Notes under the pieces: generated by a model
Databases searched by the model: none
Seen by the model: only the letters and a program-made list of their open reading frames with translations
What the model was told of the DNA's origin: nothing
Made by a program: the position numbers and the translations under genes
DNA from: Deltaproteobacteria bacterium
Lineage (GTDB): Bacteria; Myxococcota_A; Polyangia; Polyangiales; JADJMO01
DNA: 64,000 bases
Assembly: GCA_022843175.1 (NCBI GenBank)
Contig: JALHOE010000004.1
Coordinates: 1-64,000 of the forward strand
Direction: 5' to 3'
Shown: positions 1-63,752 of the stretch, piece by piece
Layout: each line of letters starts with the position of its first letter
Position numbering within the stretch: the first letter of the stretch is position 1

Positions 1-452
1 CCGTCGCGGAGCGGGCGGCCCTTGCCGCACGGGCCCGTCGCGTAGCCGTAGCAGCACGCGGCCGGGTCCTTCTTCTCGCGTTGCTCCTTGGTGATGAACT
101 CGATGTACGAGGCGTTCTGGTCCTCGAAGCCCTCGATGAGGGCGTCCTTCGGGATCTTCACGGTGCCGCCGCACTCCAGCGCGAGCGCGCTCGCATCCCA
201 CGGGAACGCGACCTTCGGCCGGCCGGTGGTGCAGAAATGGACGTACGTGCAGTGGCCCGGCTTCTCGGCCGAGCCCTCGAGGATCCACGTCTTCACCTTC
301 GGCTCCTCCGGAGCCACCGGCTTCTTCTTCTTCTTGAGGCCCTCGTTCTCGACGGACGTCGCCTCGCCGAGGTCCTTCTTGCAGGCGACGGGGAGCGACA
401 CGCACGTGAGCGAGAGCGAGACGAACAGACGCTGGCGAAGCCCCGAGTACAT
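1..452 (-). CDS. Secreted cysteine-containing lipoprotein, partial (C-terminus off window)
   Basis: Reading the minus strand from an ATG at 452 gives 150 codons that stay open to the window edge. Residues 1-24 form a signal peptide ending in the lipobox LPVAC, so Cys24 is probably lipidated. A run of five lysines follows at about residue 40, then a globular part with paired cysteines, including a CCYGYATGPCG motif near the cut end. I recognise no enzyme family; the cysteine pattern suggests a disulfide-stabilised surface protein. It lies downstream of sucA on the same strand but is separated from it by a repeat block, so it probably has its own promoter. The function is unknown. Confidence 0.6.
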   Translation of the reverse strand, partial: MYSGLRQRLFVSLSLTCVSLPVACKKDLGEATSVENEGLKKKKKPVAPEEPKVKTWILEGSAEKPGHCTYVHFCTTGRPKVAFPWDASALALECGGTVKIPKDALIEGFEDQNASYIEFITKEQREKKDPAACCYGYATGPCGKGRPLRD

Positions 453-475
453 CCCCCGAGGCTACTGCGCAAATA

Positions 476-648
476 GCCGCGCGCGTAAGCGAGCGCCTGA
501 CACGACAAGCCGCAGCAGCTAGGCGCGCGCGTAAGCGAGCGCCTGACACGACAAGCCGCAGCAACTAGGCGCGCGCGTAAGCGAGCGCCTGACACGACAA
601 GCCGCAGCAACTAGGCGCGCGCGTAAGCGAGCGCCTGAGACGACAAGG
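476..648. repeat. 46-bp tandem repeat, about 3.7 copies, each carrying a GTAA-loop hairpin
   Basis: Units start at 476, 522, 568 and 614 with an exact 46-bp period; the last diverges after about 33 bases. Each unit begins with the hairpin sequence GGCGCGCGCGTAAGCGAGCG, which folds into a ten-position stem with one G/A mismatch and a GTAA loop. In RNA this loop would be a GNRA-type tetraloop closed by C-G. The rest of the unit is a constant spacer. The block lies between the 3' end of sucA and the start of the next minus-strand gene. An inverted copy of the hairpin follows at 677-700. Confidence 0.9.
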
Positions 649-676
649 CTCTGACAGTACCGGCGCGGACAGGACC

Positions 677-700
677 AGGCGCTCGCTTACGCGCGCGCCT
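677..700 (-). repeat. Inverted copy of the GTAA hairpin, directly after the sucA stop
   Basis: The 24 bases are the exact reverse complement of the hairpin core in the 476-648 block. On the sucA transcript the hairpin begins 5 nt after the stop codon (706-708), so it is placed to stabilise or end that mRNA. It has no U-tract, so it is not a textbook intrinsic terminator. With the direct copy at 613-636 it could also pair into a 24-bp stem. Confidence 0.75.
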
Positions 701-705
701 ATTTG

Positions 706-3498
706 CTAGGCGAACGCTTGCTCGATGAGGCGCGCCTGCTCGAGCTTGTGCGCGGCGCTCGACCCCGTCGCGGGCGAAGCGCTCTCGTCGCGGCCGACGC
801 AGCTGAACTTCTCGAAGCGGCGGCGGAACCAGTCGCCGAGACGCGCGTTGACGAACCACCACGCACCCGAGTTCCACGGCTCGTCCTGCACCCAGTTGAC
901 CTGGATGTTGCGAGGGAACTTATCGACCGCCTGGAGGAGCGAGTCGTCGAGCGGGTAGAGCTGCTCGAGGCGCACGATGGCGACGTCTTCGGCGCCGCGC
1001 GCGCGACGCGCATCCGCCAAGTCGTAGTAGACCTTGCCGCTGCAGAGGAGCAGCTTCTTCACCTTCTCGGGCGCGACGCTCAGATCGGGGATGACCCGCT
1101 GGAACGTGCCCTCGGAGAGCTCTTTGATCGTCGATACCGGATGGGTGCCGGGCTGCGCGGCCGCGGGCGCGCGGAGCATGCTCTTCGGCGTCATGATGAC
1201 GAGCGGCTTGCGCCAGGGGCGAAGCACCTGCCGACGGAGCGCGTGGAAGATCTGCGCGGGCGTCGTGAGGTTGCACACCTGGATGTTGTCCTCGGCGGCG
1301 AGCTGGAGGAACCGCTCGAGGCGCGCGCTCGAGTGCTCGGGGCCCTGGCCCTCGTAGCCATGCGGCAGGAGCAGGACGATGCCGCTGAGGCGGCGCCACT
1401 TGTCCTCTCCTGAAGTAATGAACTGGTCGATGATGACCTGCGCGCCGTTGGCGAAGTCCCCGAATTGCGCCTCCCAGATCACGAGCGCATCGGGGAAGTC
1501 GAGCGAGTAGCCGTAGTCGAAGCCGAGGACGCCCTGCTCCGAGAGCGGCGAGTCCCACACCTCGAACTTGCCCTGCTGGCTCGAGAGGTTCTGCAGCGGC
1601 GAGTGCTTCTCGCCCGTCTTGCTGTCGAACAGCACCGCGTGGCGGTGGGTGAAGGTGCCTCGCCGCGCGTCCTGCCCGGAGAGGCGGATCGGCGTGCCCT
1701 GCTCGAGGAGCGAGGCGAAGGCCATCGCCTCGCCGGTGCCCCAGTCGAACGGCTCGCCCGATTCGAGCTTGGCCGCGCGGTCCTCCCACACCTTCGCGAC
1801 CTTCGCGTTGGCGTTGAAGCCCTGCGGGAAGGTGGCCATCTTGCGGGCGAGCGCGATCAGGCGCTGCGCCTCGACGCGCGTGGCCACCTCGGGCGTGGCC
1901 TGGTCGCGGCCGCCGCGATACGGGATCCACACGCCGCCCATCGCGTTCGGCACCCACGAGACCTCGCTCTTGCGAACGAAGTCGAGCGCATCCATAAACG
2001 ACTTATACGTCGTCTCCATGACGCCATCGACATCGGCCTGGGTGGCCGCGCCGGCCGCGATGAGCTCCTTGGCGAAGATCTCGCGGATGGACGGCTTCTT
2101 GTCGATCGCCGCGTACATCGTGGGCTGGGTGAAGCGCGGCTCGTCGGTCTCGTTGTGACCGTATTTGCGGTAGCAGAGCAGGTCGATGACGACGTCGGCG
2201 CCGAAGCGCTGGCGGTACTCCGCGGCCATGCGGGCGACGTGGGCGACCGCCTCGAGGTCCTCGCCGTTCACGTGGAACACCGGGATGCGCAGCATGCGGG
2301 CGAGGTCGGTGGCGTAGCGGGTGCTACGCGAGTCCTTGGGGATGGTGGTGAACCCGACCTGGTTGTTGATGATGATGTGCACCGTGCCGCCGGTGCAGTA
2401 GCCCTCGAGGCGCGCGAGGTTGATCGTCTCGGCGACGACGCCCTGCCCCATGAACGCCGCGTCGCCGTGGATGAGGAGCGGCACCACCTTGTGGCGCTGC
2501 TTGTCGTCCTTGCGGTCCTGCTTGGCGCGGACGCGGCCCTCGACGACCGGGTTGACGAACTCGAGGTGCGACGGGTTGAAGGCGAGCGTGAGGTGGACGG
2601 TGCGACCCGACGACGTGACCCGATCGGTCGACGCGCCGAGGTGATACTTCACGTCGCCCGAGCCGAGGTGCTTCTCGGGCTCGTTGTCGACGAACGCGGC
2701 GAGGATCTCGCGCACGTTCTTGTCCATGATGTTGACGAGGACGCTGAGGCGGCCGCGGTGGGCCATGCCGAGCACGATCTCCTCGGCGCCCATCTCTCCC
2801 GCCTTGTCGATCAAGAGATCGAGCATCGGGATCATCGACTCGCCGCCCTGCACCGAGAAGCGCTTGGCGCCGATGAAGTTCTTGTGGATGAACGTCTCGA
2901 ACGCCTCGGCCTCGGTGAGCTTCTGCAGGATGCGCGAGGACAGCTCGGGCCCGAGCTCGAGGCGGTTGAGCGTCGACTCCATCTGCTCCTGCAGCCAGCG
3001 GCGCTGCTCGGGCTCCTCGATGTCGCGGAACTCGACGCCGATCGAGCGGCAGTAGGTGTGCTGAACGCGGTCGATGATCTCGCGGAGCGTGGCTGTGGGC
3101 GCGCCGGGCATGTCGGCGACGCTGAAGTCGCTGTCGAGGTCCTCCTCGGAGAGGCCGAACGTCTCGAGCGCGAAGTCGGAGTGTGCGGGCGGCGCTTCGT
3201 CCATCAGGAGGCCGAGCGGGTCGATCTTCGCCAGCAGGTGACCGCGCGCGCGGTAGGTCGCGATGAGCTGGGTGACGCCGGCCTGCTTGACCGCCTTGAG
3301 CAGCTCGGCCGCGTTCCCCTCGAACCGTCCCGGCGGGAGACTCGGCGACGACGCCGGCGGCGCCGAGCCCCGGTCGCCCCCACGGATCAGCTCGTCGAGG
3401 TACGCGCGCCACTGCTCGTCGACCGAGCCGCGGTCGTGCAGGTACATGCCCACGAGCTCACTCACCAAACCTGCGTTTACGCCGAAATCCTTGGTCAT
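706..3498 (-). CDS. sucA: 2-oxoglutarate dehydrogenase E1 component
   Basis: This is the thiamine-diphosphate-dependent decarboxylase subunit of the 2-oxoglutarate dehydrogenase complex in the TCA cycle. At 930 aa it is full length for SucA. Residues 1-40 match the short N-terminal helix that binds the E2 partner (LVSELVGMYLHDRGSVDEQW). The diphosphate-binding region GMAHRGRL lies near residue 243, the HGDAAFMGQG cofactor-binding stretch near 346, and NNQVGFTT near 379. The C-terminal transketolase-like half is complete. No sucB or lpd gene follows in the window, so the gene stands alone here. The ATG at 3498 fits the family N-terminus. Its 3' end runs into the hairpin repeat. Confidence 0.97.
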   Translation of the reverse strand: MTKDFGVNAGLVSELVGMYLHDRGSVDEQWRAYLDELIRGGDRGSAPPASSPSLPPGRFEGNAAELLKAVKQAGVTQLIATYRARGHLLAKIDPLGLLMDEAPPAHSDFALETFGLSEEDLDSDFSVADMPGAPTATLREIIDRVQHTYCRSIGVEFRDIEEPEQRRWLQEQMESTLNRLELGPELSSRILQKLTEAEAFETFIHKNFIGAKRFSVQGGESMIPMLDLLIDKAGEMGAEEIVLGMAHRGRLSVLVNIMDKNVREILAAFVDNEPEKHLGSGDVKYHLGASTDRVTSSGRTVHLTLAFNPSHLEFVNPVVEGRVRAKQDRKDDKQRHKVVPLLIHGDAAFMGQGVVAETINLARLEGYCTGGTVHIIINNQVGFTTIPKDSRSTRYATDLARMLRIPVFHVNGEDLEAVAHVARMAAEYRQRFGADVVIDLLCYRKYGHNETDEPRFTQPTMYAAIDKKPSIREIFAKELIAAGAATQADVDGVMETTYKSFMDALDFVRKSEVSWVPNAMGGVWIPYRGGRDQATPEVATRVEAQRLIALARKMATFPQGFNANAKVAKVWEDRAAKLESGEPFDWGTGEAMAFASLLEQGTPIRLSGQDARRGTFTHRHAVLFDSKTGEKHSPLQNLSSQQGKFEVWDSPLSEQGVLGFDYGYSLDFPDALVIWEAQFGDFANGAQVIIDQFITSGEDKWRRLSGIVLLLPHGYEGQGPEHSSARLERFLQLAAEDNIQVCNLTTPAQIFHALRRQVLRPWRKPLVIMTPKSMLRAPAAAQPGTHPVSTIKELSEGTFQRVIPDLSVAPEKVKKLLLCSGKVYYDLADARRARGAEDVAIVRLEQLYPLDDSLLQAVDKFPRNIQVNWVQDEPWNSGAWWFVNARLGDWFRRRFEKFSCVGRDESASPATGSSAAHKLEQARLIEQAFA

Positions 3499-3554
3499 CT
3501 TGGCCCGCCGACCTTAGCAGAAATGCGGCCCGCCGACGCGTCCGCGGCTAGGTT

Positions 3555-4016
3555 ATGGGGATGGGAGACGAGCCGGAGAAGAAGGCCGGCGGACGATTGG
3601 GCGGGACGCGGCCGGGTCCGGGCGTGGATCCGATGCGCCCGCCGAGCCGGATCGATCCCGGCAAGCGGCGCCTCGACCGCGCGGTCTCGGTCGCGATCGC
3701 TATCCCCACGCCGATGGAGCGCGCCGCCGTCGCCAAGGCGCTGATCCAGGCGCAGTGCACGGTCACCATCGTCGACGCCGCCGACGACGTGCGCGACGCG
3801 GAGGTGCTCATCGCCGACGTCGACGTGCCGGAGATGTTCGCGCTGATCGACGCCGTGCGCCGCACGCGCAAGGACATCGGGCTCATCGCGTGGACAAGCC
3901 GTCGCGCGATGGTGGAGCGCGGCTTGTCGGCGATGGACTTCGATCGCTGCGAGTCCATCGACCGCAAGGCGCGCATCTCGGAGCTGGTCGAGGCCGTGCA
4001 GCGCGTCGCCGACTGA
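3555..4016 (+). CDS. Receiver-like (CheY-fold) protein, possibly degenerate
   Basis: The 153-aa product starts with a charged, Pro/Gly-rich tail of about 45 residues. A domain then alternates hydrophobic strands with helices in the manner of a response-regulator receiver: VSVAIAIPTPMERAAVAKAL, then VLIADVDVPEMFALIDAV, then IGLIAWTSR. The acidic pocket is only partly present; the Asp of the ADVDVP strand sits about where the phosphorylated Asp would be. No output domain follows. It is transcribed divergently from sucA, 56 bp away. The start may be the ATG at 3555 or at 3561. A single-domain or pseudo-receiver role is inferred. Confidence 0.55.
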   Translation: MGMGDEPEKKAGGRLGGTRPGPGVDPMRPPSRIDPGKRRLDRAVSVAIAIPTPMERAAVAKALIQAQCTVTIVDAADDVRDAEVLIADVDVPEMFALIDAVRRTRKDIGLIAWTSRRAMVERGLSAMDFDRCESIDRKARISELVEAVQRVAD

Positions 4017-4077
4017 GGGCCGTCCCCTGCCAAGGGCTCGCCGCGGGGGGGCAGGAGGATTGCCTCTCGAGATTCCG

Positions 4078-4165
4078 ATCTACTCGCTATACGCGTTAGT
4101 TCGGATCGAGAACGTATGGCCGGGACGGAGCCAACTACCCGAACTAACGCGTATAGCGAGTAGAT
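4078..4165. repeat. Perfect 27-bp inverted repeat with 34-bp loop
   Basis: The arms are 4078-4104 and 4139-4165; the left starts ATCTACTCGCTATACGCGTT and the right is its exact complement. Arms of this length in DNA this GC-rich are unusual, and the arms are visibly richer in A/T than their surroundings. The element lies downstream of the gene ending at 4016 and downstream of the minus-strand scar at 4237-4399, so it could end transcription from both sides. No transposase and no clear flanking direct repeat were seen. Confidence 0.9.
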
Positions 4166-4207
4166 GCGAACTCGGGTCGGTGCCCGGGTCGAGGTAGGGC
4201 GGCCCGG

Positions 4208-4399
4208 GGCTACCGCTCGTCGCAGCCGCACTCCGCGTATCTCGCTCTCCTCCATCACGATCGGGTTGTGGAGGAGAAGCCCGTCGTCCTTCAAGCGGAC
4301 GACGACCATCGTCTGCTCGAGCGACATCGTGGGGATCGCTCCCCACACGCGCCATGGGTTCTCTGCCAGCTGCTCGAGCTTGCCGTGGGGAAGCACGTT
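4208..4399 (-). pseudogene. Chimeric scar: N-terminus of a metallo-hydrolase-like gene joined to a zinc-ribbon gene tail
   Basis: On the minus strand, 4255-4381 encodes a segment beginning LEQLAENPWRVWGAIPTMSL and ending near LLLHNPIVMEE. It matches the N-terminus of the intact gene at 44746-45444 (LEQLAENLWRVEGDIPRMKL); I count about 23 identities in 44 positions. The homology stops at about 4240. There, 29 bases (4208-4236) are identical to 35101-35129, the last codons and stop of the zinc-ribbon gene at 35103-35267, but in a different reading frame from the upstream piece. The locus is thus a fusion of two broken genes, next to the 27-bp inverted repeat. It should not make a functional protein. 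Confidence 0.75.
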
Positions 4400-4491
4400 C
4401 CACGCGCGGCATTGGTCTTCGCAATACCTCCCCAGCTGGGCGAAGCGCGCCGTGTCGGCGAGCGGTGCCCCGCGCCTCGGACGCCCGGTTG

Positions 4492-4926
4492 CTAACAGCC
4501 GCTGCAGGCGGGAGGCGGCGCCAAGTTTCCGCGCACCGTCGTGATGGTGCAGGTTCCGGGGCAGTCCTCGCCGTTGATGTACCGCGTGGTCTTCTCCGGC
4601 GCGGACGTGGCGGTCGCGATCACCTTTCCGTCGTACGAGAGCGACGGCACGCTGGTGTCGCCGGGAGCGCCCTCGGAGCTCGTGAACCCCACGACGACAC
4701 CGCGGTCCACCACCGGTTGCACGTCGGGGCTCGCGCACGTCGCCGTGGTCGATCCGGGCTGCACGCGACAGCTCGTCGACAACACCAGGTAGGGGCCGGG
4801 TGGCAGCGCACCTGTGGCCGTAAAGACGACGCGCGTCTGGTCCAGGCACGCCATCGCGGGGCAGGCGCGGTCGGCCGGCGAGCAGTGCATCAACGGCAAG
4901 GTAAGAAGGAGCCATCTCATAATCAT
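4492..4926 (-). CDS. Secreted protein of unknown function
   Basis: The predicted protein has 144 aa when started at the ATG at 4926 (or 4920), which puts the signal peptide (MRWLLLTLPLMHC) at the N-terminus; the longer reading adds a non-signal extension. The cysteine at the end of the hydrophobic stretch suggests a lipoprotein, although the preceding residues are not a canonical lipobox. The mature part is a single beta-rich domain with six or more cysteines and ends PPACSGC. The gene stands alone on the minus strand. I recognise no family. Confidence 0.55.
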   Translation of the reverse strand: MIMRWLLLTLPLMHCSPADRACPAMACLDQTRVVFTATGALPPGPYLVLSTSCRVQPGSTTATCASPDVQPVVDRGVVVGFTSSEGAPGDTSVPSLSYDGKVIATATSAPEKTTRYINGEDCPGTCTITTVRGNLAPPPACSGC

Positions 4927-5102
4927 TCCGTGCAGCGTAGCCGCCGCTCCCACGGAGCGCTCCGATGCTGCGGCGTTAGCCTCATAGGGTGTCGCGTACG
5001 TCGCTCAGCGTCCTCCTCCGTGCGGACCATCGACAACGACGCCTCCTTCACGTTCCGGTTTCACGAGCTCGACTGACTTGGAGCCGCGTGTAGCCTCCTC
5101 GA

Positions 5103-5588
5103 ATGACCATTGATGACCAGCGTCTTCGCGCGATCGTGCGTCTCAGCGACAGGGGCGAGACCTACCGCGAAGCCGGCAGCCCCACTGCGGACGACGCCGA
5201 TCGCATCCTCGGCATCGCGGCGATGATGATCCGGGCGGACGGGCAGGAGTATTCGGAGGAGCTCCGCGCCTTTCGCATCTTCGCCGACGAGGTGCGATCG
5301 ATCACCGGCGCCGAAGACGTTGCCGCGCTCGACGACCATCCCTCCGGCCTGGACGAGGAGGGGCGCCTCGCCCGCGTGCGAGCCCTCGCGAAGGAGCTCA
5401 GTTGCCCCGCGGCCGGCGCGCTCGGCTACAAAATCGCCGTCGCGCTGCGCGACTGCGATCAGGCCGTCGTCGACAGCGAGTACGACCTCGAGGACGCTCT
5501 CGCGACGGCGCTCGGCCTGACCGCCGAAGACATCGATGCGTTGACCGCGGAGGTGCACGATGCGCTCGCCGGTCCCGAGTCGCTTTGA
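5103..5588 (+). CDS. TerB-like small acidic protein
   Basis: The 161-aa protein is soluble, helical and acidic. The stretch ILGIAAMMIRADGQEYSEEL (about residues 36-55) resembles the helix-turn of TerB/TerB-like domains, where an Asp-Gly step and acidic residues line a metal-binding site. TerB domains are found in tellurite-resistance and stress-related membrane complexes. No other ter gene is near, so the role is open. The ATG at 5103 is the first start of the open frame. Assignment to the TerB fold is by pattern only. Confidence 0.6.
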   Translation: MTIDDQRLRAIVRLSDRGETYREAGSPTADDADRILGIAAMMIRADGQEYSEELRAFRIFADEVRSITGAEDVAALDDHPSGLDEEGRLARVRALAKELSCPAAGALGYKIAVALRDCDQAVVDSEYDLEDALATALGLTAEDIDALTAEVHDALAGPESL

Positions 5589-5769
5589 AGGCTTCTGCGT
5601 CGCGGCGCGCACCCTTCAACCAATGACATTCGCCGACCGAGAGCTCAGCGTCGAGCGCCCGGTGCTCACGCGTTTGGAACGGCACAGAGATGTGGCTCGC
5701 ACATTCCTTTGAAGCAGCGCAGTCCGCATCGCTCCCGACCACGCACCTGCGCCTTACGCCTGGGCCTGC

Positions 5770-6699
5770 TCACCGCCCACGCCGCCGCTCGGCCGCCTTT
5801 CCCACCTTCTTCGGCGGCGCGCTCAGGCTCTCGGCGAGGAGATCATAGACCAGCCGGATCCTCCGGCTCGTGCGCAGCTCGCGGTGACAGACCAGCCACA
5901 TCGGGATCGGGAGCGGCGCGAGGGACGGCAGCACGCGGCGCACGCGCGGCTCGGCGTCGCCGATCTCCTCCATCATGATGCAGATGCCGACCCCCTGTTT
6001 GCACAGCTCCCACTGCACGAGGTGGTTCTCGGTCACGATCGGGAACTGCTCGCGCGTGACCTCGACGCCGAGCGTGCGGAGGCCGTCGATCATGATGTCC
6101 GTCCGATCGAAGGCGAAGAGCTCCGCGCGCGAGAGATCGCGCGGCGACGCGATCTTCGCTCGCTCGAGGTAGGAGGGCGCTGCGTACATATGCGCGTGGG
6201 AGTCCCGGAGCTTCTGGGCGATGAGATCGGGCTGGCTCACGCGGAAGTTGCGGACCGCGATGTCGGCCTCGCGGCGGTGGAGATCGCGCGCCTTGTTCGA
6301 CGCGACGAGCTCGAGCTCGATGCCGGGGTGCTCACGGCGGAGCCGCGCCACGATCGGGGGCAGCAGGTACGCCGAGATCGCTTCGCTGGCGGTGATGCAC
6401 ACCGAGCCGACGATCGACGACGACTGGCCCGTCGCCGCGAGGGACACGCGCGTCGCCGCCTCGTGCATCGCGCGCACGTGCTCGACGAGATCGATCCCGG
6501 AGCGCGTGAGCGCGAGGCTCGTCCCGACGCGCTCGAACAACGTCACGGAGAGCTCCTCCTCGAGCGCGGCGATCTGACGGCCGACCGTCGGCTGCGTCGT
6601 CCCGAGCGCGCGGGCGGCGGCCGAGAACGAGCCCTCTTCGGCCGTGACGAGGAACGCCCGGGCTCGGTTCCAGTCGAAGGTCGCGGAGCGCCAGTCCAT
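5770..6699 (-). CDS. LysR-family transcriptional regulator
   Basis: The first 60 residues carry the LysR winged helix-turn-helix (FLVTAEEGSFSAAARALGTT then QPTVGRQIAALEEEL). A periplasmic-binding-protein-like effector domain follows to residue 309. With the start at 6699 the length matches the family; an ATG at 6711 is also possible. The gene is divergent from the oxidoreductase at 6770, leaving 70 bp for a shared promoter and operator. LysR proteins commonly regulate the divergent neighbour, so control of that gene is likely but inferred. The C-terminal tail is Arg/Lys-rich. Confidence 0.92.
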   Translation of the reverse strand: MDWRSATFDWNRARAFLVTAEEGSFSAAARALGTTQPTVGRQIAALEEELSVTLFERVGTSLALTRSGIDLVEHVRAMHEAATRVSLAATGQSSSIVGSVCITASEAISAYLLPPIVARLRREHPGIELELVASNKARDLHRREADIAVRNFRVSQPDLIAQKLRDSHAHMYAAPSYLERAKIASPRDLSRAELFAFDRTDIMIDGLRTLGVEVTREQFPIVTENHLVQWELCKQGVGICIMMEEIGDAEPRVRRVLPSLAPLPIPMWLVCHRELRTSRRIRLVYDLLAESLSAPPKKVGKAAERRRGR

Positions 6700-6769
6700 G
6701 CATTTCTGCATACCACCTGTGCGCGCCGGCCCACTTCTCGTTCTCGCTGCGCGTCGCACACTCTGCGGC

Positions 6770-7897
6770 ATGCGAGCAGCCGTCACCCCCGTCTATGGTC
6801 CCCCGGACGTCCTCGAGCTCCGCGATGTGCCGAAGCCGGCGCTCCGCGAGCGCGACGTCCTGATCGAGGTGCACGCGAGCCCGGTGAACGCCGCCGACCA
6901 CCGGCTGCGGTCCGCGGACTTCCCCTCGTTCTCGGCGGTGATCGGCCGCCTCATCATCGGCCTCCGGCGGCCGCGCCACGCCGTGCAGGGCACGATGTTC
7001 GCGGGCCGGGTGGTCGCCGTCGGTCGCGCGGTCACGCGGTACGCCGTCGGCGACGACGTGTTCGGCAGCGCCGACCACGGCACCTATGCCGAGTACCTCG
7101 CGGTGTCCGAGGACGGCCCGATGGCGCGCCTGCCGCAGAACCTCTCCTACGGCGAGGCCGCCGCCCTCCCCTACGGCGCGGTGACGGCGATGCACTTCCT
7201 CCGCGATCTGCGCCCCGGAGAGAAGCTCCTGGTGCTCGGCGCCTCGGGCGGCGTCGGTCGCTTCGCCGTGCAGCTCGGCAAGCACCGCGGCGCCGAGGTG
7301 ACCGCGGTGTGCAGCGCCGCGACGTTCGACCTGGTGCGCGGCCTCGGAGCGGACCACGTCCTCGACTACGCGACCGCGACGCCCGACGGCCGATACGACG
7401 CGATCTTCGATGTCGCCGGCGTCAGCACCTACCCGCGCGCGCGCGCCCTCCTCACGAGCACGGGACGCTACATGACGCTGCTCCTGAGCGTCGCCGTCCT
7501 CGTGCAGATGCTCGTCACCTCGCTGCGCCGCGGACCCAAAGCGCGCTTCGCGATCGCGTTCGGCGACCGGGAGCAGATGGAGGAGATCCGCGATCTCGCC
7601 GAGCGCGGCGTGCTCCGCCCGGTGATCGCGCGCACGTTCCCCCTCGCGCGCATCGCCGAAGCCCACGCGGCGCGGGAGCACGGGGCGGTGATCGTCGAGA
7701 TCGTGAGCTCAGAGCTTCGCCGAGCGGAGCGGGGAGGCGTGATGGAGGGCTCACTGCGCCGTCGCGAGATCCTCAGCCTCGAAATAGCGAATGGCGCCGC
7801 GATCGATCGCCGACAGATCCGTGACGTCGCTGCCGCTCACCCGGAGGTCCAAGAGCTTTGCGCCCCGCAGCGGCGAGAGGTCTCGCACATTGGGTGA
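6770..7897 (+). CDS. Zinc-independent quinone-oxidoreductase-like dehydrogenase with C-terminal read-through tail
   Basis: The protein belongs to the medium-chain dehydrogenase/reductase superfamily. An N-terminal GroES-like domain (MRAAVTPVYGPPDVLELRDV) is followed by a Rossmann fold with the nucleotide-binding loop GASGGVGRFAVQLGK near residue 158. There is no structural-zinc cysteine cluster, which points to NAD(P)H:quinone oxidoreductase or enoyl-reductase activity. Members normally end soon after the stretch at HGAVIVEIV (about residue 310). Here about 65 further residues follow, and most of them lie antisense to the leucine-rich-repeat remnant at 7751-7918, so the tail is probably accidental. 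The ATG at 6770 is the correct start. It is divergent from the LysR gene and probably controlled by it. Confidence 0.85.
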   Translation: MRAAVTPVYGPPDVLELRDVPKPALRERDVLIEVHASPVNAADHRLRSADFPSFSAVIGRLIIGLRRPRHAVQGTMFAGRVVAVGRAVTRYAVGDDVFGSADHGTYAEYLAVSEDGPMARLPQNLSYGEAAALPYGAVTAMHFLRDLRPGEKLLVLGASGGVGRFAVQLGKHRGAEVTAVCSAATFDLVRGLGADHVLDYATATPDGRYDAIFDVAGVSTYPRARALLTSTGRYMTLLLSVAVLVQMLVTSLRRGPKARFAIAFGDREQMEEIRDLAERGVLRPVIARTFPLARIAEAHAAREHGAVIVEIVSSELRRAERGGVMEGSLRRREILSLEIANGAAIDRRQIRDVAAAHPEVQELCAPQRREVSHIG

Positions 7898-7918
7898 AGC
7901 GGACGTCGACGCGTAACA
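7751..7918 (-). pseudogene. Remnant of a leucine-rich-repeat protein
   Basis: The minus strand encodes NVRDLSPLRGAKLLDLRVSG and then SDVTDLSAIDRGAIRYFEAE, ending at a TGA at 7751. The periodic L-x-x-L-x-L with V-T-D-L-S-x-I is the pattern of internalin/PpA-type leucine-rich repeats. About two repeats remain and no start region is present. It overlaps the 3' end of the plus-strand oxidoreductase. It is best read as the C-terminal relic of a larger gene. Confidence 0.55.
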
Positions 7919-8007
7919 GCCGCCTCTTGCCGGCGAGCGGCGTAAGGTCTTCGACCGGCGACCATGCGCAGCACGCCGAGCGACGGCGGAGACGACGAGG
8001 GTGACGC

Positions 8008-8604
8008 TCAGCCGAACAGCCAGCGCCTCTTTGGCGGCGCGAGCATCGACTTGAAGCCGTTGACCATCACGTAGCCGGCTCCGAGCACGAGGAGACTCGA
8101 GCTCGCGAGCATCAGCACATCGAGCGGCACGCGCCAGGTGTCGGCGCGGTGGCGGCCGAACCGCGACTTGAAGCCGTGACGGGTGAGCTCCGCTTTGATC
8201 CCCCACTCCGCGAGGAAGTTGTCGGGCTTGCCGCGGAACAGGTCGACGACCAGGCTCTCGAGGACGTCGATGCGATCGGCGAACATCAGCGCGAGCCAGT
8301 GCATCGTCTGGCCCTCCGACCAGTGACGATAGGCCGCGCGGCGGATGATCCCGGAGAGGCCCTTGGGGGGACACGCGGTGCCGAACACGGGAGTGATCTC
8401 GCGGTGCTCGGTGGACCTCTCGCGCGGGAAGGTCGCGATCTGCTGCTCGGGGACCTCCCAGTGCGCGCCGGTGCTCGCCGGGTCGTAGACCTCCTTCTTC
8501 GCGGCCGGGCGCATCCCCGGGTCGAGGTCGACGCCCCAGCCGGGGATCTTCGCGCGGAGCTCGCGGGTGTCGGGCGCGTTCGGTTTGTTTGCGGTGTATG
8601 CCAT
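8008..8604 (-). CDS. Conserved membrane-anchored protein paired with the alcohol dehydrogenase
   Basis: The 198-aa protein is mostly soluble. A helical middle part contains GLSGIIRRAAYRHWSEGQTM and MHWLALMFADRIDVLESLVV, and there is one membrane helix near the C-terminus (about residues 163-185), followed by a basic tail. The ATG at 8604 lies 9 bp after the stop of the dehydrogenase, so the two are almost certainly one operon. I do not recognise a named domain. The tight pairing suggests it supports or anchors the dehydrogenase at the membrane, which is inference. Confidence 0.75.
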   Translation of the reverse strand: MAYTANKPNAPDTRELRAKIPGWGVDLDPGMRPAAKKEVYDPASTGAHWEVPEQQIATFPRERSTEHREITPVFGTACPPKGLSGIIRRAAYRHWSEGQTMHWLALMFADRIDVLESLVVDLFRGKPDNFLAEWGIKAELTRHGFKSRFGRHRADTWRVPLDVLMLASSSLLVLGAGYVMVNGFKSMLAPPKRRWLFG

Positions 8605-8613
8605 GAGCGCTCC

Positions 8614-9762
8614 TTACGCGGCCCGGGGGAAGACGAGCGGTTTGACGACGTTGTCGAGCTTGCTCGACATCATGTGATAGCCCTCGGCGATCTCGTCGAG
8701 CGCCAGGCGATGGGTGACGATCGCGCTCGGTTTGAGCACGCCGTTCTTCACGTGTTGAAAGAGGCGCGGCCAGTGGCGCTTCACGCTGCACTGCGCGGTG
8801 CGAATCGTGAGCCCCTTGTTCATCGCGTCGCCGAACTTCACCGCAGAGAACAGCGGGCCGAAGCCGCCGACGACCGAGACGATGCCCGCCTTGCGCACGG
8901 AGTCGATCGCCCAGTTGAGCGCGGTCGGCGCGCCGCCCTGCAGCTTCATCTTCACCGTGGCGAGGTGCTGGAAGCCGGCGCCATCGGCCTCGGCGCCGAC
9001 GGCCTCGATGCAGACGTCCGCGCCGAGGTTGTCGGTCACGTCCTTGAAGTGCTGCACGACGTCGTTCACTTGTGTGAAGTTGAGCGTCTCGGCGTGGGCG
9101 AACGTCCTCGCCATCTGCAACCGCCAATCCAGGTGATCGACGACGATCACCCGACCGGCGCCCATCAACCACGCCGACTTCGCGGCGAAGAGACCGACGG
9201 GACCCGCGCCGAAGACGACGACGACATCGCCCTCCTTGATGTCGCCCATCTCCGCGGCCTGATAGCCGGTGGGGCACGCGTCGGTGAGGAGGACCGCGTC
9301 CTCCTCGCTCATCCATTCGGGGATGATGGCGTGGTTGACGTCGGCGAACGGCACGCGCACGAACTCCGCCTGGCCGCCGTCGTAGCCGCCCGCGGTGTGC
9401 GAGTAGCCGAACATGCCGCCGGCCGCGGTCGCGTTGGCGTTGGTGTTGTGACAGCTGCTGTACAGCTGGCGCGCGCAGAAAAAGCACGCTCCGCACGAGA
9501 TGTTGAACGGCATCATCACGCGGTCGCCGCGCCTGAGTGACTGTACGGACGAGCCGACCTCCTCGACGATGCCGGTGAACTCGTGGCCGAACGTGAACCC
9601 CACGCGCGTGTCGGGCATGAGCCCGTGGTAGAGGTGTAGATCGGAGCCGCAGATCGCCGCGCAAGTGACCCGAACGATCGCATCGTTCGGGTGCTCGATC
9701 GTCGGCATGTCCTTCTCCTCGACGCGGACCCGATACGGTCCGCGGTAAACCATTGCGCGCAT
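8614..9762 (-). CDS. Zinc-dependent alcohol/formaldehyde dehydrogenase family protein
   Basis: The protein has 382 aa and is a medium-chain zinc dehydrogenase. The catalytic-zinc region includes AAICGSDLHLYHG and GHEFTGIVEEVG. The structural-zinc cluster with four cysteines (CGACFFCARQLYSSC) is intact, and the NAD-binding loop is FGAGPVGLFAAKSAW. It resembles the glutathione-independent formaldehyde-dehydrogenase-like branch. The start is the ATG at 9762, preceded by a clear AGGAGG ribosome site; the frame is open further upstream but only through the dispersed repeat. It heads a two-gene operon with the 8008-8604 protein. Confidence 0.93.
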   Translation of the reverse strand: MRAMVYRGPYRVRVEEKDMPTIEHPNDAIVRVTCAAICGSDLHLYHGLMPDTRVGFTFGHEFTGIVEEVGSSVQSLRRGDRVMMPFNISCGACFFCARQLYSSCHNTNANATAAGGMFGYSHTAGGYDGGQAEFVRVPFADVNHAIIPEWMSEEDAVLLTDACPTGYQAAEMGDIKEGDVVVVFGAGPVGLFAAKSAWLMGAGRVIVVDHLDWRLQMARTFAHAETLNFTQVNDVVQHFKDVTDNLGADVCIEAVGAEADGAGFQHLATVKMKLQGGAPTALNWAIDSVRKAGIVSVVGGFGPLFSAVKFGDAMNKGLTIRTAQCSVKRHWPRLFQHVKNGVLKPSAIVTHRLALDEIAEGYHMMSSKLDNVVKPLVFPRAA

Positions 9763-9867
9763 GAAGCCTCCTTGAGGGATTTGTCCCCCGAGGGTGCAAC
9801 CACCGCGCCCGACCACGGCTGACGTCGGCGCTACTTCGCGCAGTCCTTCGGGATCGGGGGGTAGGAC

Positions 9868-9964
9868 GTCGAGGCGTCCGCGTGTGATTCCAGTCGGCGA
9901 GTTGACATAGGTCCCCTCCTCCGATCTACCCATCGGACGGCCGGGTTGGGCCGCGACGTCTCTG
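9868..9964 (-). repeat. Dispersed 97-bp repeat, copy A (full)
   Basis: About 97 bp is closely similar to 13026-13121 (copy B), starting GTCGAGGCGTCCGCGTG and ending CCGCGACGTCTCTG on the plus strand. It contains a small hairpin, CCGAT-CTACCC-ATCGG, at 9921-9935. It lies 106 bp upstream of the dehydrogenase start. On the other side it abuts the broken gene at 9966. The half copies at 21.65 kb and 35.0 kb share its right and left parts. Strand is given relative to the downstream gene, which is on the minus strand for every copy. Confidence 0.85.
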
Positions 9965-9965
9965 T

Positions 9966-10075
9966 GAGTACTACGACGTCGCGCAGGAGAAGGGGAAGCC
10001 GAAGAAGATCCTCACCTGCGAGGCGACGTGCAAATCGTTCTCGATTGCTCGCCGGGCTTCACCCGCTTGCGGTAG
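9966..10075 (+). pseudogene. C-terminal remnant of a secreted Cys-containing (VWA-type) protein, frameshifted
   Basis: From 9966 the plus strand reads EYYDVAQEKGKPKKILTCEA. A shift of frame is then needed to continue as DVQIVLDCSPGFTRLR, ending at a TAG at 10073-10075. The order K-I-L-T-C, then V-x-I-V-L-x-C near the C-terminus, resembles the tail of myxobacterial secreted von Willebrand-type proteins. This likeness is from memory of such tails and is not verified. The piece begins two bases after repeat copy A, so the repeat marks the break point. It lacks a start and is not expected to be functional. Confidence 0.5.
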
Positions 10076-10114
10076 ACCGCGCTGCGGATGTTCGTAGCGC
10101 AGGATTAGCGCTGG

Positions 10115-11173
10115 TCAGCGTCGGCGGCGGACGAGCGCGATGGCGAGCGCGGCGAGCGCGAACAGACCCGAACCGCCCGAGCGCCCCGGCGTGTCGCACG
10201 AGCACGCCGGCTTCGCGGCGGGAAGGTCGAACCCTCCGCCGGGCACGCGGGTGTCCGCTTCGCTCGCATCGACGAGCGGCGTCGCGTCGAGCTCCGGCTC
10301 GGTGTCGGGCTGCGCGCTGTCGGCGATCGCGACGTCATCGACCGACGTGTCCGGCGGCGCGGTGTCGGCTACCGACGTGTCGGCTGCCGACGTGTCGGGC
10401 ATCGACGTGTCGGGGATCGATGTATCGGGCATCGACGTATCGGGCATCGATGTGTCGGGCATCGACGTGTCCGGCGGCGCGGTGTCGGGCGTGCCGGTGT
10501 CGACCGGCGCGGTGTCGGCGCCCGCATCGAGCCCGCAAGACGTCTTCGACGCCGAGGAGTTTCGGGCCACGGGGGCCGACGACGCGAAGTCCGCGCTGTT
10601 GTCGTCGGTCTCGGTGCAGCCGGAGCCCTTCCGCTGCGGCGAGGTGAGGATCGTACCCGGCGGCGCCGCTCCGCTGCCCTCGAAGGCGGTCGCTGCGCCG
10701 TAGCCGACGAAGTCGACGACCCCCGAGGCGGTCGCGCATCCGACCGTGCACGTGAGCGCCGTCGACGAGCTCACCAACGCGACCTTGCCGGACAGGGCGC
10801 TGAGGTTGCTCGTCCCCGTCGCGTCCGAGGTCGGCAGGGTGAGCCCGCCGCCCGCGGTGTCGGTGTACATCTGGACCAGGAAGTACCCTCCGGCCGGGAT
10901 CGTCTTCGCGGGCAGCGCGGTGACGGTCCACGACGCTCCGGCGGCGGCGGCGTATTGGAGCGACCATCCGCTCACCGAGACCGAGGTCGTTCCGCGGTTG
11001 AAGATCTCGATGAAGTCGCTGTTGTAGATCGTCCCCGCGTTGCCGGCGCCACCGTAAACCTGGCTGATGACCAAGCCGGTCGACAACGCTTGCTCCGACG
11101 AGGCGAGCTCGGGGCCCGACGACGACGACGAGCATCCCGCGAGCAGCACCATCGACGCGAGCAGCCGGCGCAC
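10115..11173 (-). CDS. Lamin-tail-domain surface lipoprotein with D-T-S-x-P repeats and MYXO-CTERM-like tag
   Basis: From a GTG at 11173 the protein has 352 aa. Residues 1-14 form a signal peptide with lipobox (LLAGC). A lamin-tail domain follows, with the typical opening LVISQVYGGAGNAGTIYNSD and later FIEIFNRG and GWSLQY. From about residue 220 there is a low-complexity linker of DTSMP/DTAPP repeats. The C-terminus, with CSCDTPGRSGG, a hydrophobic helix and four arginines, has the layout of a MYXO-CTERM sorting tag. It is therefore a surface-exposed, possibly sorted protein; lamin-tail domains in bacteria often accompany secreted nucleases or adhesins. Confidence 0.8.
   Translation of the reverse strand: MRRLLASMVLLAGCSSSSSGPELASSEQALSTGLVISQVYGGAGNAGTIYNSDFIEIFNRGTTSVSVSGWSLQYAAAAGASWTVTALPAKTIPAGGYFLVQMYTDTAGGGLTLPTSDATGTSNLSALSGKVALVSSSTALTCTVGCATASGVVDFVGYGAATAFEGSGAAPPGTILTSPQRKGSGCTETDDNSADFASSAPVARNSSASKTSCGLDAGADTAPVDTGTPDTAPPDTSMPDTSMPDTSMPDTSIPDTSMPDTSAADTSVADTAPPDTSVDDVAIADSAQPDTEPELDATPLVDASEADTRVPGGGFDLPAAKPACSCDTPGRSGGSGLFALAALAIALVRRRR
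10340..10520 (-). repeat. 15-bp coding minisatellite (D-T-S-M-P repeats)
   Basis: Within the lamin-tail protein gene, the plus-strand unit GTGTCGGGCATCGAC repeats head-to-tail with small changes, most regularly from 10392 to about 10466, with looser copies on either side. The 15-bp period keeps the reading frame, so copy-number changes would only lengthen or shorten the surface linker. Such arrays are prone to slippage between strains. Confidence 0.85.
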
Positions 11174-11440
11174 GCTGCGAGCATACCGCGTTACGGTACG
11201 ATCGCGCTCTCGTAGGTCGCGTTGAGAGCGTGGGGTTGGAAACAAGACGACTGCGTTCGACCTGTCGGGGACGAGAACGAACGAACGATCGATCACACCG
11301 TCTGCGCCCTGGCGAAATCGGAACCGCGCGACGCCGGGGGGAAGGTTGGCGATTGGGGTGCCCAATCCGCAGTCGCACCGGGAGGTGTCGCGGAGGTTGT
11401 ACTTCGCCCCCGCGAGCGGCGCGCCGCCATGAGCCAGGCT

Positions 11441-12100
11441 CTACGGTGAAGCGACGGGCGCTCCCTCCGAGCACTCGTCTTTCACGCTCTTCTCTGCGTC
11501 GTCACGCACGAACCGCCACTCGGCGCCGAACGACGCGTCGCCCGCCTCGAAGACGATCTTGAACGGCGCGTGGGTGGGCCACTCCGCGCGCGCGATCGCT
11601 TGCGCGAGGGTGCAGGTCGGGCCGTTGCGGTAAGTGCTCGGTGGGCCCGCGATCGTCTGGGTCCAGCGCTCGCCGCCGAATGCGGTGACGCCGAAGCGAT
11701 CGCTCTTGCCATCCCTCGTCCGGCTCCACTCCGCGCTGAAGAAGCCAGTGGTCGGGATGAAACCGGGCGCGTTCATCCCGAACACCGGCGTACCGGACCA
11801 GGTCTTCCCCGAGCACGTGATCGCAAGCCGTCCCTTCGCATCCGCGCATGATGCGCGCGCCCAGACCAGCGTCACCTCGTACCCACCCGCATGCGCGAGC
11901 GCCGCGCCCTCCGCGATGAACGCCTCGAACCCCTCGACCTTCGGCGCGGCGTTCGCCGAAGCCGTCGGCGCGGCGGGATCGGAGCGGATCTCCGCGCGCG
12001 AGGGGCGACGACACGCCATCGCCGCGAGGACAATCACCGAGAAGCGCCAAAGGCTCGGCGGGGAACGCAACGACGCGAGGCTGCACCGAACCTGTGGCAC
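11441..12100 (-). CDS. Lipoprotein of unknown function
   Basis: The 219-aa protein has a long basic N-region, a hydrophobic core and the lipobox AAMAC near residue 30, which argues for lipid anchoring. After a short Ala/Ser/Pro linker there is one globular domain with two conserved-looking cysteine pairs. It contains TTGFFSAEWSRTRDGKSDRF and an aromatic-rich beta region. The start codon is GTG at 12100; shorter starts are possible because the N-region is long. No family is recognised and no operon partner is evident. Confidence 0.6.
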   Translation of the reverse strand: MPQVRCSLASLRSPPSLWRFSVIVLAAMACRRPSRAEIRSDPAAPTASANAAPKVEGFEAFIAEGAALAHAGGYEVTLVWARASCADAKGRLAITCSGKTWSGTPVFGMNAPGFIPTTGFFSAEWSRTRDGKSDRFGVTAFGGERWTQTIAGPPSTYRNGPTCTLAQAIARAEWPTHAPFKIVFEAGDASFGAEWRFVRDDAEKSVKDECSEGAPVASP

Positions 12101-63687: not shown

Positions 63688-63752
63688 AGGCGCGCGCGTA
63701 AGCGAGCGCCTACCGGCGCGAATCACCGAGGCGCTCGCTGACGCGCGCGCCC
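63688..63752. repeat. GTAA-hairpin repeat, one direct and one inverted copy
   Basis: The direct copy (63688-63711) is identical to the hairpin core of the 476-648 block. The inverted copy (63729-63752) has GTCA in place of GTAA on its coding strand and a changed last base. The loop between them begins TACCGGCGCG, the same bases that separate the last direct copy from the inverted copy at the left of the window (659-668). It lies between two minus-strand genes, downstream of the 63856 gene. Confidence 0.88.

Follow-up and report, generated by a model that had tools for sequence, protein, structure and literature searches.

A genome-restricted family of short inverted repeats with frozen arms and drifted interiors in a member of the order Polyangiales

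We examined an inverted repeat at positions 4078–4165 of a 64,000-nucleotide stretch of DNA (hereafter, the window) from a member of the order Polyangiales. The repeat belongs to a small family that is real, is unmatched in the collections searched and has unusually frozen arms, which enclose drifted interiors of preferred lengths. We lean towards regarding the family as a lineage-specific inverted-dimer element, the arms of which would be the recognition sites of a putative trans-acting protein.

The inverted repeat in the window and its copies

The sequence-only reading had described a perfect inverted repeat of relatively A/T-rich sequence, and both observations were confirmed. The 27-bp arms, the left at 4078..4104 on the minus strand (ATCTACTCGCTATACGCGTTAGTTCGG) and the right at 4139..4165 on the plus strand, are perfectly complementary across a 34-bp interior (4105..4138), and 13 of the 27 arm bases are G or C (48%), vs 68–70% in the surrounding two kilobases. 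The complementarity was 94% when the arms were lengthened to 32 nt. Within the arms lies a conserved 20-bp core, CTAACGCGTATAGCGAGTAG, which is read on the minus strand at 4080–4099 and on the plus strand at 4144–4163. The column profile of all 44 arms of the family (see below) extends the element to 4063..4180, with weaker conserved outer flanks of the form WTSSGAATTY...GG that reach 17 bp beyond each core. Among inverted repeats with exact arms of at least 16 nt separated by no more than 160 bp, this was the longest in the window, and the scan returned only three others there, all of them pairings of a single 26-bp repeat at 520–701. The chance expectation for such a repeat in 64 kb, estimated from base composition, is approximately 1e-8. 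The predicted RNA fold of 4066–4178 was 10.3 (plus strand) and 8.9 (minus strand) SD below dinucleotide shuffles, and no T-run follows the stem on either side; the plus-strand sequence past the stem is ATGCGAACTCGGG.

The element occupies the gap between a 153-aa open frame (3555–4016, plus strand) and a called frame at 4492–4890 (minus strand). No Pfam family was assigned to either frame, and the 153-aa frame was unmatched at E 1e-10 in G001, a genome of the same genus. The sequence-only reading had placed a chimeric scar directly beside the repeat; there, the stretch 4199–4492 (minus strand) has the appearance of a gene remnant, and its Pfam search was also empty. An Rfam search of window positions 1–12000 gave four matches, every one under its gathering score; one of them falls on the element (mir-275, 24.5 bits vs 56 required).

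We searched the 121-bp region against its own genome (G000; 9.75 Mb in 470 contigs) using BLAST and obtained 76 local matches at E values up to 1. The core was found with no more than 3 mismatches at 44 places in this genome, and the reversed control was found at none, which excludes both chance and a local assembly artefact as the source of the repeat. The 44 arms form 21 complete pairs, all inverted and all with the core pointing outward, and two halves at the starts of contigs C18 and C39. Both halves begin within GC-rich interior sequence of a similar kind and could be opposite ends of a single copy, which puts the family at 22 or 23 elements. The 21 complete pairs are located on 21 contigs and have different interiors and flanks. 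Six of the 23 copies are found no more than 250 bp from a contig end (contigs C18, C39, C123, C142, C265, and C357), where about 0.6 were expected by our own arithmetic, a sign that these hairpins tend to interrupt the assembly.

The distance between core starts was 100–102 bp in 13 of the 21 complete pairs and 64 bp in four, and the others measured 41, 75, 81, and 86 bp. The corresponding interiors, measured from 5 nt inside the core, are 70–72 nt long in 13 pairs and 34 nt long in four, the window copy among the latter. Its total length is 118 bp, and that of the commonest size class is about 155 bp. The sequence-only reading had considered the repeat a possible mobile-element end and had suggested looking for copies that enclose a gene; the core starts are 41–102 bp apart in 21/21 complete pairs, and a mobile element with cargo was therefore rejected.

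Conservation of the arms and divergence of the interiors

Read outward, the arms have the consensus CSSAW CTAACGCRWATAGCGAGTAG WTSSG AAYY, with weaker conservation continuing to two G residues 17 bp past the core. Twenty-three columns are invariant in 44/44 arms. The exact core is present in 32 of the 44, and the remaining 12 differ only at core positions 8 and 9, which form the loop of an imperfect palindrome within the arm itself, CTAaCGC-RWATA-GCGagTAG, whose stems are small (3 + 3 bp). We trained a weight matrix on the 44 arms themselves and ran it over 539 kb of the genome (464 kb plus all copy loci); the arms scored at least 54.9 bits, and the next sites scored 3.3 (on C178) and −14.3. 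Beyond 3 core mismatches, copies could be picked up only via BLAST and within this 539-kb scan. The C178 site (L090, 179–198; CTAACGCGTATACGCGGTAG-ATCGG) is solitary, has 4 mismatches from the core, adjoins a perfect palindrome (GGTATCCCACC-a-GGTGGGATACC), and was left out of the copy counts as a doubtful singlet.

Two further regularities were seen around the core. In 43 of 44 arms, the SS dinucleotide outside the core (columns 22–23) reads CG or GC, as does the one inside the core in 40 of 44, and the state of one arm does not predict that of the other. The outer flanks, at least 17 bp beyond the core, contain more G than C on the outward strand (skew 0.10 on the left and 0.15 on the right).

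The interiors are near chance similarity. When the 13 long interiors were compared in register, they were 38.2% identical untrimmed vs 32.5% for shuffled sequences, 35.8% vs 34.7% with 6 nt cut from each end (p 0.05), and 35.5% vs 34.1% with 10 nt cut from each end (p 0.03). Their mean local scores were 9.8 vs 8.6 for shuffled sequences, and reverse complements scored equally so. These small excesses may be a trace of common origin. Fifteen of the 21 interiors were also searched in the genome, where, among the 40 of 239 candidates that were scored, 14 retrieved themselves (the fifteenth has 11 nt), three other weak matches had E values of 0.002–0.004, and the interior of the window copy occurred nowhere else.

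Recently copied elements would have alike interiors, and old neutral ones would have decayed arms; neither is the case, which argues for selection. The perfect match had been attributed beforehand to recent origin or strong selection, and the comparison favors the second over the first: 23 columns do not vary in any arm, and the interiors retain little more than chance similarity. A recent burst was rejected on the same ground, although, contrary to this rejection, BLAST aligns the C115 element with several others at 72–77% over about 135–165 bp, arms included. As judged from the aligned copies, the letters of the arms and their spacing are constrained, and the letters of the interior hardly so.

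We compared the two arms of each copy in order to assess the pairing between them. Nine pairs vary in the core: both arms changed alike in two (C5 and C103), both changed differently in one, and only one arm changed in six. Among the 29 variable columns, agreement between left and right arms somewhat exceeded random expectation at two, column −8 (p 0.03) and column 7 (p 0.06); the arms otherwise vary largely independently. Averaged over 20 interiors, predicted folding matched that of shuffles (mean z −0.19, SE 0.29), and three interiors fell below −2. Judged by these substitution patterns and predicted folds, pairing between the arms is not clearly a feature under maintenance, and an RNA hairpin under pairing selection is not favored, given the scant left/right agreement beyond chance and interiors that on average fold like shuffles. 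The perfect arms themselves would be expected to pair.

Genomic placement and comparison with relatives

None of the 23 copies overlaps a called gene. Both neighbors were called for 17 copies, of which 7 lie between convergent, 9 between tandem, and 1 between divergent genes. These calls come from a simple codon-usage script and are rough: a gene beside C13 was probably missed, and the caller was blind to the tmRNA beside C115, the counting of which makes that case tandem. The neighbors scanned with Pfam include dnaK and genes for a MoxR-type ATPase, an RNase H, a PAPS-reductase-domain protein, a CoA-binding protein, and a DUF2505 protein, and no theme common to these was seen. Some copies are upstream of genes (cysD-like, tmRNA). 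The 22 loci other than that of the window contained no tRNA and the one tmRNA neighbor. The MoxR-type neighbor, used as a probe, retrieved distant relatives only (47–58% identical). At C115 (L086), a phage-type integrase gene (267–1888) directly adjoins the 3′ end of the tmRNA gene and is likely part of a genomic island in ssrA.

The search for the arm among relatives that the sequence-only reading had proposed succeeded at home, with the 44 matches, and failed elsewhere. Allowing 2 mismatches, we found the core in none of the 182 further genomes searched from the order, which include G001 and three more of the same family. The exact core pattern was found neither in a genome-contig collection nor in viral contigs, collections that may omit near relatives, and a BLAST search of the element against plasmids and phages was empty.

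We compared the 23 loci with 1.72 Mb of G001. At least one flank was matched in 8 loci, and both flanks were adjacent in two, C115 and C16; at C13, both flanks were on one G001 contig, about 6 kb apart. The spacer between tmRNA and the DUF2505 gene at C115 is 246 bp here vs 100 bp in G001 (146 bp shorter) between blocks that are 83–85% identical, and the C16 spacer is about 450 bp here vs 321 bp (about 130 bp shorter) between blocks that are 75–79% identical. Both G001 spacers lack the motif. The differences approximate a whole element with its interior, which indicates that arms and interior were gained, or lost, together; arms that wrapped a pre-existing interior were rejected for this reason. 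At these two loci, the whole element was probably gained in the present lineage. With two loci, one relative, and diverged spacers as the basis, gain here is the simpler reading than loss in G001. Dispersal as a unit is thus indirectly supported by two shorter orthologous spacers.

Other comparisons at related loci gave negative results. A similar inverted repeat was seen in G001 neither downstream of dnaK nor upstream of the PAPS-reductase-domain gene. The dnaK orthologs of G001–G004 and the sulfate-gene orthologs of G001–G003, with one conserved flank each, were accompanied only by inverted repeats of other sequence. When 741 kb of G001 was scanned de novo for a comparable dimer, 32 exact pairs emerged, which were mostly inverted heptamer arrays, the rest being single palindromes. 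No target-site duplication was established; the flanks were judged by eye, and the orthologous sites were too diverged. Insertion into pre-existing palindromes was rejected, because the outer flanks of the same copy were no more alike than those of different copies (permutation p 0.44 and 0.24; 20/21 copies); C115 alone has 10-bp complementary flanks.

Both genomes contain other repeats. A second family with the hairpin AGGCGCGCGCGTNAGCGAGCGCCT occurs in the window at 476–699 and 63689–63751 as singles, inverted pairs, and tandem arrays. At no more than 1 mismatch to one form, it has 573 places in its own genome (304 + 269) and none in 27 relatives, and its center, CGCGT-N-AGCGAG, resembles the present arm core, CGCGT-AT-AGCGAG. 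IS200-like Y1 genes on C15 (L094), C46 (L096), and C367 (L093) have nearby copies of CCTGCCGGSGGCNTNNNNGGCGAAGC, which are inverted on C15 and C46 and single on C367; this sequence has 10 places genome-wide, eight of which are on these three contigs, and together with the Y1 genes it is likely a REPIN-RAYT system. In G001, a long tandem GAACGC array extends downstream of dnaK from about position 590 of C18 (L197), and inverted heptamer arrays are accompanied by recurrent words of its own, such as the palindromic CCCCGGACTGAAGTCCGG in 8 bins. Repeat families seem to be particular to each genome.

Origin and possible role of the family

The family is REP-dimer-like in layout and probably also in origin; it is not filed as a REPIN. 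In the published accounts, REP dimers and REPINs are inverted pairs with spacers of 20–100 bp, possibly of like length but unlike sequence, and they favor convergent and tandem gene pairs (PMC3733652, PMC3116915, PMC8049555). The present copies are two inverted short palindromic units with a short spacer in 21/21 complete pairs and, by the rough caller, lie between convergent or tandem genes in 16/17 cases. The REPINs of Pseudomonas and enterobacteria are likewise two short conserved inverted units that are intergenic, have a predicted hairpin fold, and enclose a spacer that is diverse in sequence and preferred in length (PMC3116915, PMC8049555). The GTAG- and CGTC-tagged REP dimers share spacers of 20–100 bp, some of like length and unlike sequence, and a position mostly at convergent or tandem gene ends, and many of their families number 20–100 units or fewer (PMC3733652).

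The differences concern the enzyme, the foot, and the pattern of decay. An adjacent RAYT (Y1 transposase) gene is absent here, none of the five Y1 hits in the genome being on a core-carrying contig; an unlinked cognate enzyme for the arms may exist. In a published account, the GTAG foot precedes the palindrome (PMC8266576), whereas here GTAG is at the outer 3′ end of the arm, and no GTAG or CGTC foot is 5′ of the palindrome in the arm consensus. The consensus contains no CGTC, and its stems are of only 3 + 3 bp. Unlike REPINs, the family has only 22–23 copies, changes (within 3 mismatches) at two loop positions only, at most one singlet, and no clear sign that pairing between the arms is maintained; mutated classes and decaying singlets were not among the 44 hits within 3 core mismatches. 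MITEs are short non-coding units with terminal inverted repeats. The family resembles them as a short non-coding unit with perfect inverted ends, but its interiors are not clearly homologous, and no longer, gene-bearing autonomous copy was found, core starts being at most 102 bp apart in the complete pairs. Among the papers listed for REPINs or palindromic repeats in myxobacteria, none concerns such a family by its title.

The explanation we favor is an element consisting of two near-identical short palindromic units, inverted with respect to each other at preferred distances and located between genes, that would have dispersed intact within this lineage, in the fashion of REP dimers or REPINs. 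The candidate recognizers are a strand-processing enzyme that would fold each arm as a small hairpin and a DNA-binding dimer that would read each arm as a near-palindrome. Recognition by such a putative protein would fix the letters and spacing of the arms and let the interior drift. No arm-recognizing protein was found, which counts against this explanation. Moreover, a mobile population should hold partly decayed copies and singlets, and C178 is the only candidate, which fits selection by the host on each copy better than mobility. We also entertain, as a tentative possibility, that the roughly 23 chromosomal sites are a young lineage-specific network that arrived mobile and was then taken over by the host, the arms coming under purifying selection and the rest drifting. 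Each site would then be two exactly spaced arms bound by a dedicated putative protein.

It is unlikely that the family is a classical REPIN, a non-autonomous hairpin whose movement relies on one of the IS200-like tyrosine transposases of the genome itself (RAYT type). The genome does have five Y1_Tnp hits, four of them above the cut-off, and the layout, the intergenic placement, the few divergent neighbors, and the diverse spacers of like length match REP dimers and REPINs as portrayed in PMC3733652, PMC3116915, and PMC8049555. However, the core, even with 3 mismatches allowed, is on none of the five Y1 contigs, the five Y1 loci contain no arm-like site (best score −34.6), and the Y1 genes on C15, C46, and C367 are accompanied by a different repeat, CCTGCCGGSGGC..., with 10 places genome-wide. 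Two further points stand against it: GTAG is on the 3′ side of the palindrome, opposite to its place in GTAG REPs, and no cloud of mutated copies exists within 3 mismatches.

It is improbable, too, that the copies are host sites unrelated to mobility, about 23 putative binding sites at which a dedicated nucleoid or regulatory protein would bind two arms at a set spacing. Such sites would account for arms that are frozen in every copy while the interiors drift, the preferred spacings, the largely independent variation of left and right arms, and the lack of partly decayed copies within 3 mismatches. However, G001 and 181 further genomes of the order lack them even when 2 mismatches are allowed, which would be unusual for a basic chromosomal function, and the two syntenic loci look as if an entire unit had been gained there.

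The data lend no support to a plain terminator, recent copying, or chance. The sequence-only reading had placed the repeat where a bidirectional terminator would be useful, and a bidirectional intrinsic terminator or an mRNA-stabilizing hairpin would suit the strong predicted hairpin, the position of 16 of 17 copies between convergent or tandem genes, the two core-variable pairs of nine that changed alike, and an agreement somewhat above random at columns −8 and 7. We nevertheless consider this very doubtful: the T-run after the stem is missing, an exact 20-bp core is unnecessary for such a function, among the nine varying pairs the change affects a single arm in six and differs between the arms in one, similarity at variable columns is not clearly higher between same-copy arms than between different-copy arms, the interiors on average fold like shuffles, and some copies are upstream of genes. 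An assembly artefact, suggested by the excess of copies near contig ends, has a negligible probability given the different interiors and flanks of the 21 complete copies.

Repetitive palindromes of bacteria are mostly regarded as selfish DNA that replicates slowly, and hosts may retain them for a purpose. With arms frozen in every copy found, interiors that are scarcely more similar than chance, no transposase linked to the copies, and almost no decaying copies, this family is a clean case for examining whether selection acts on each copy.
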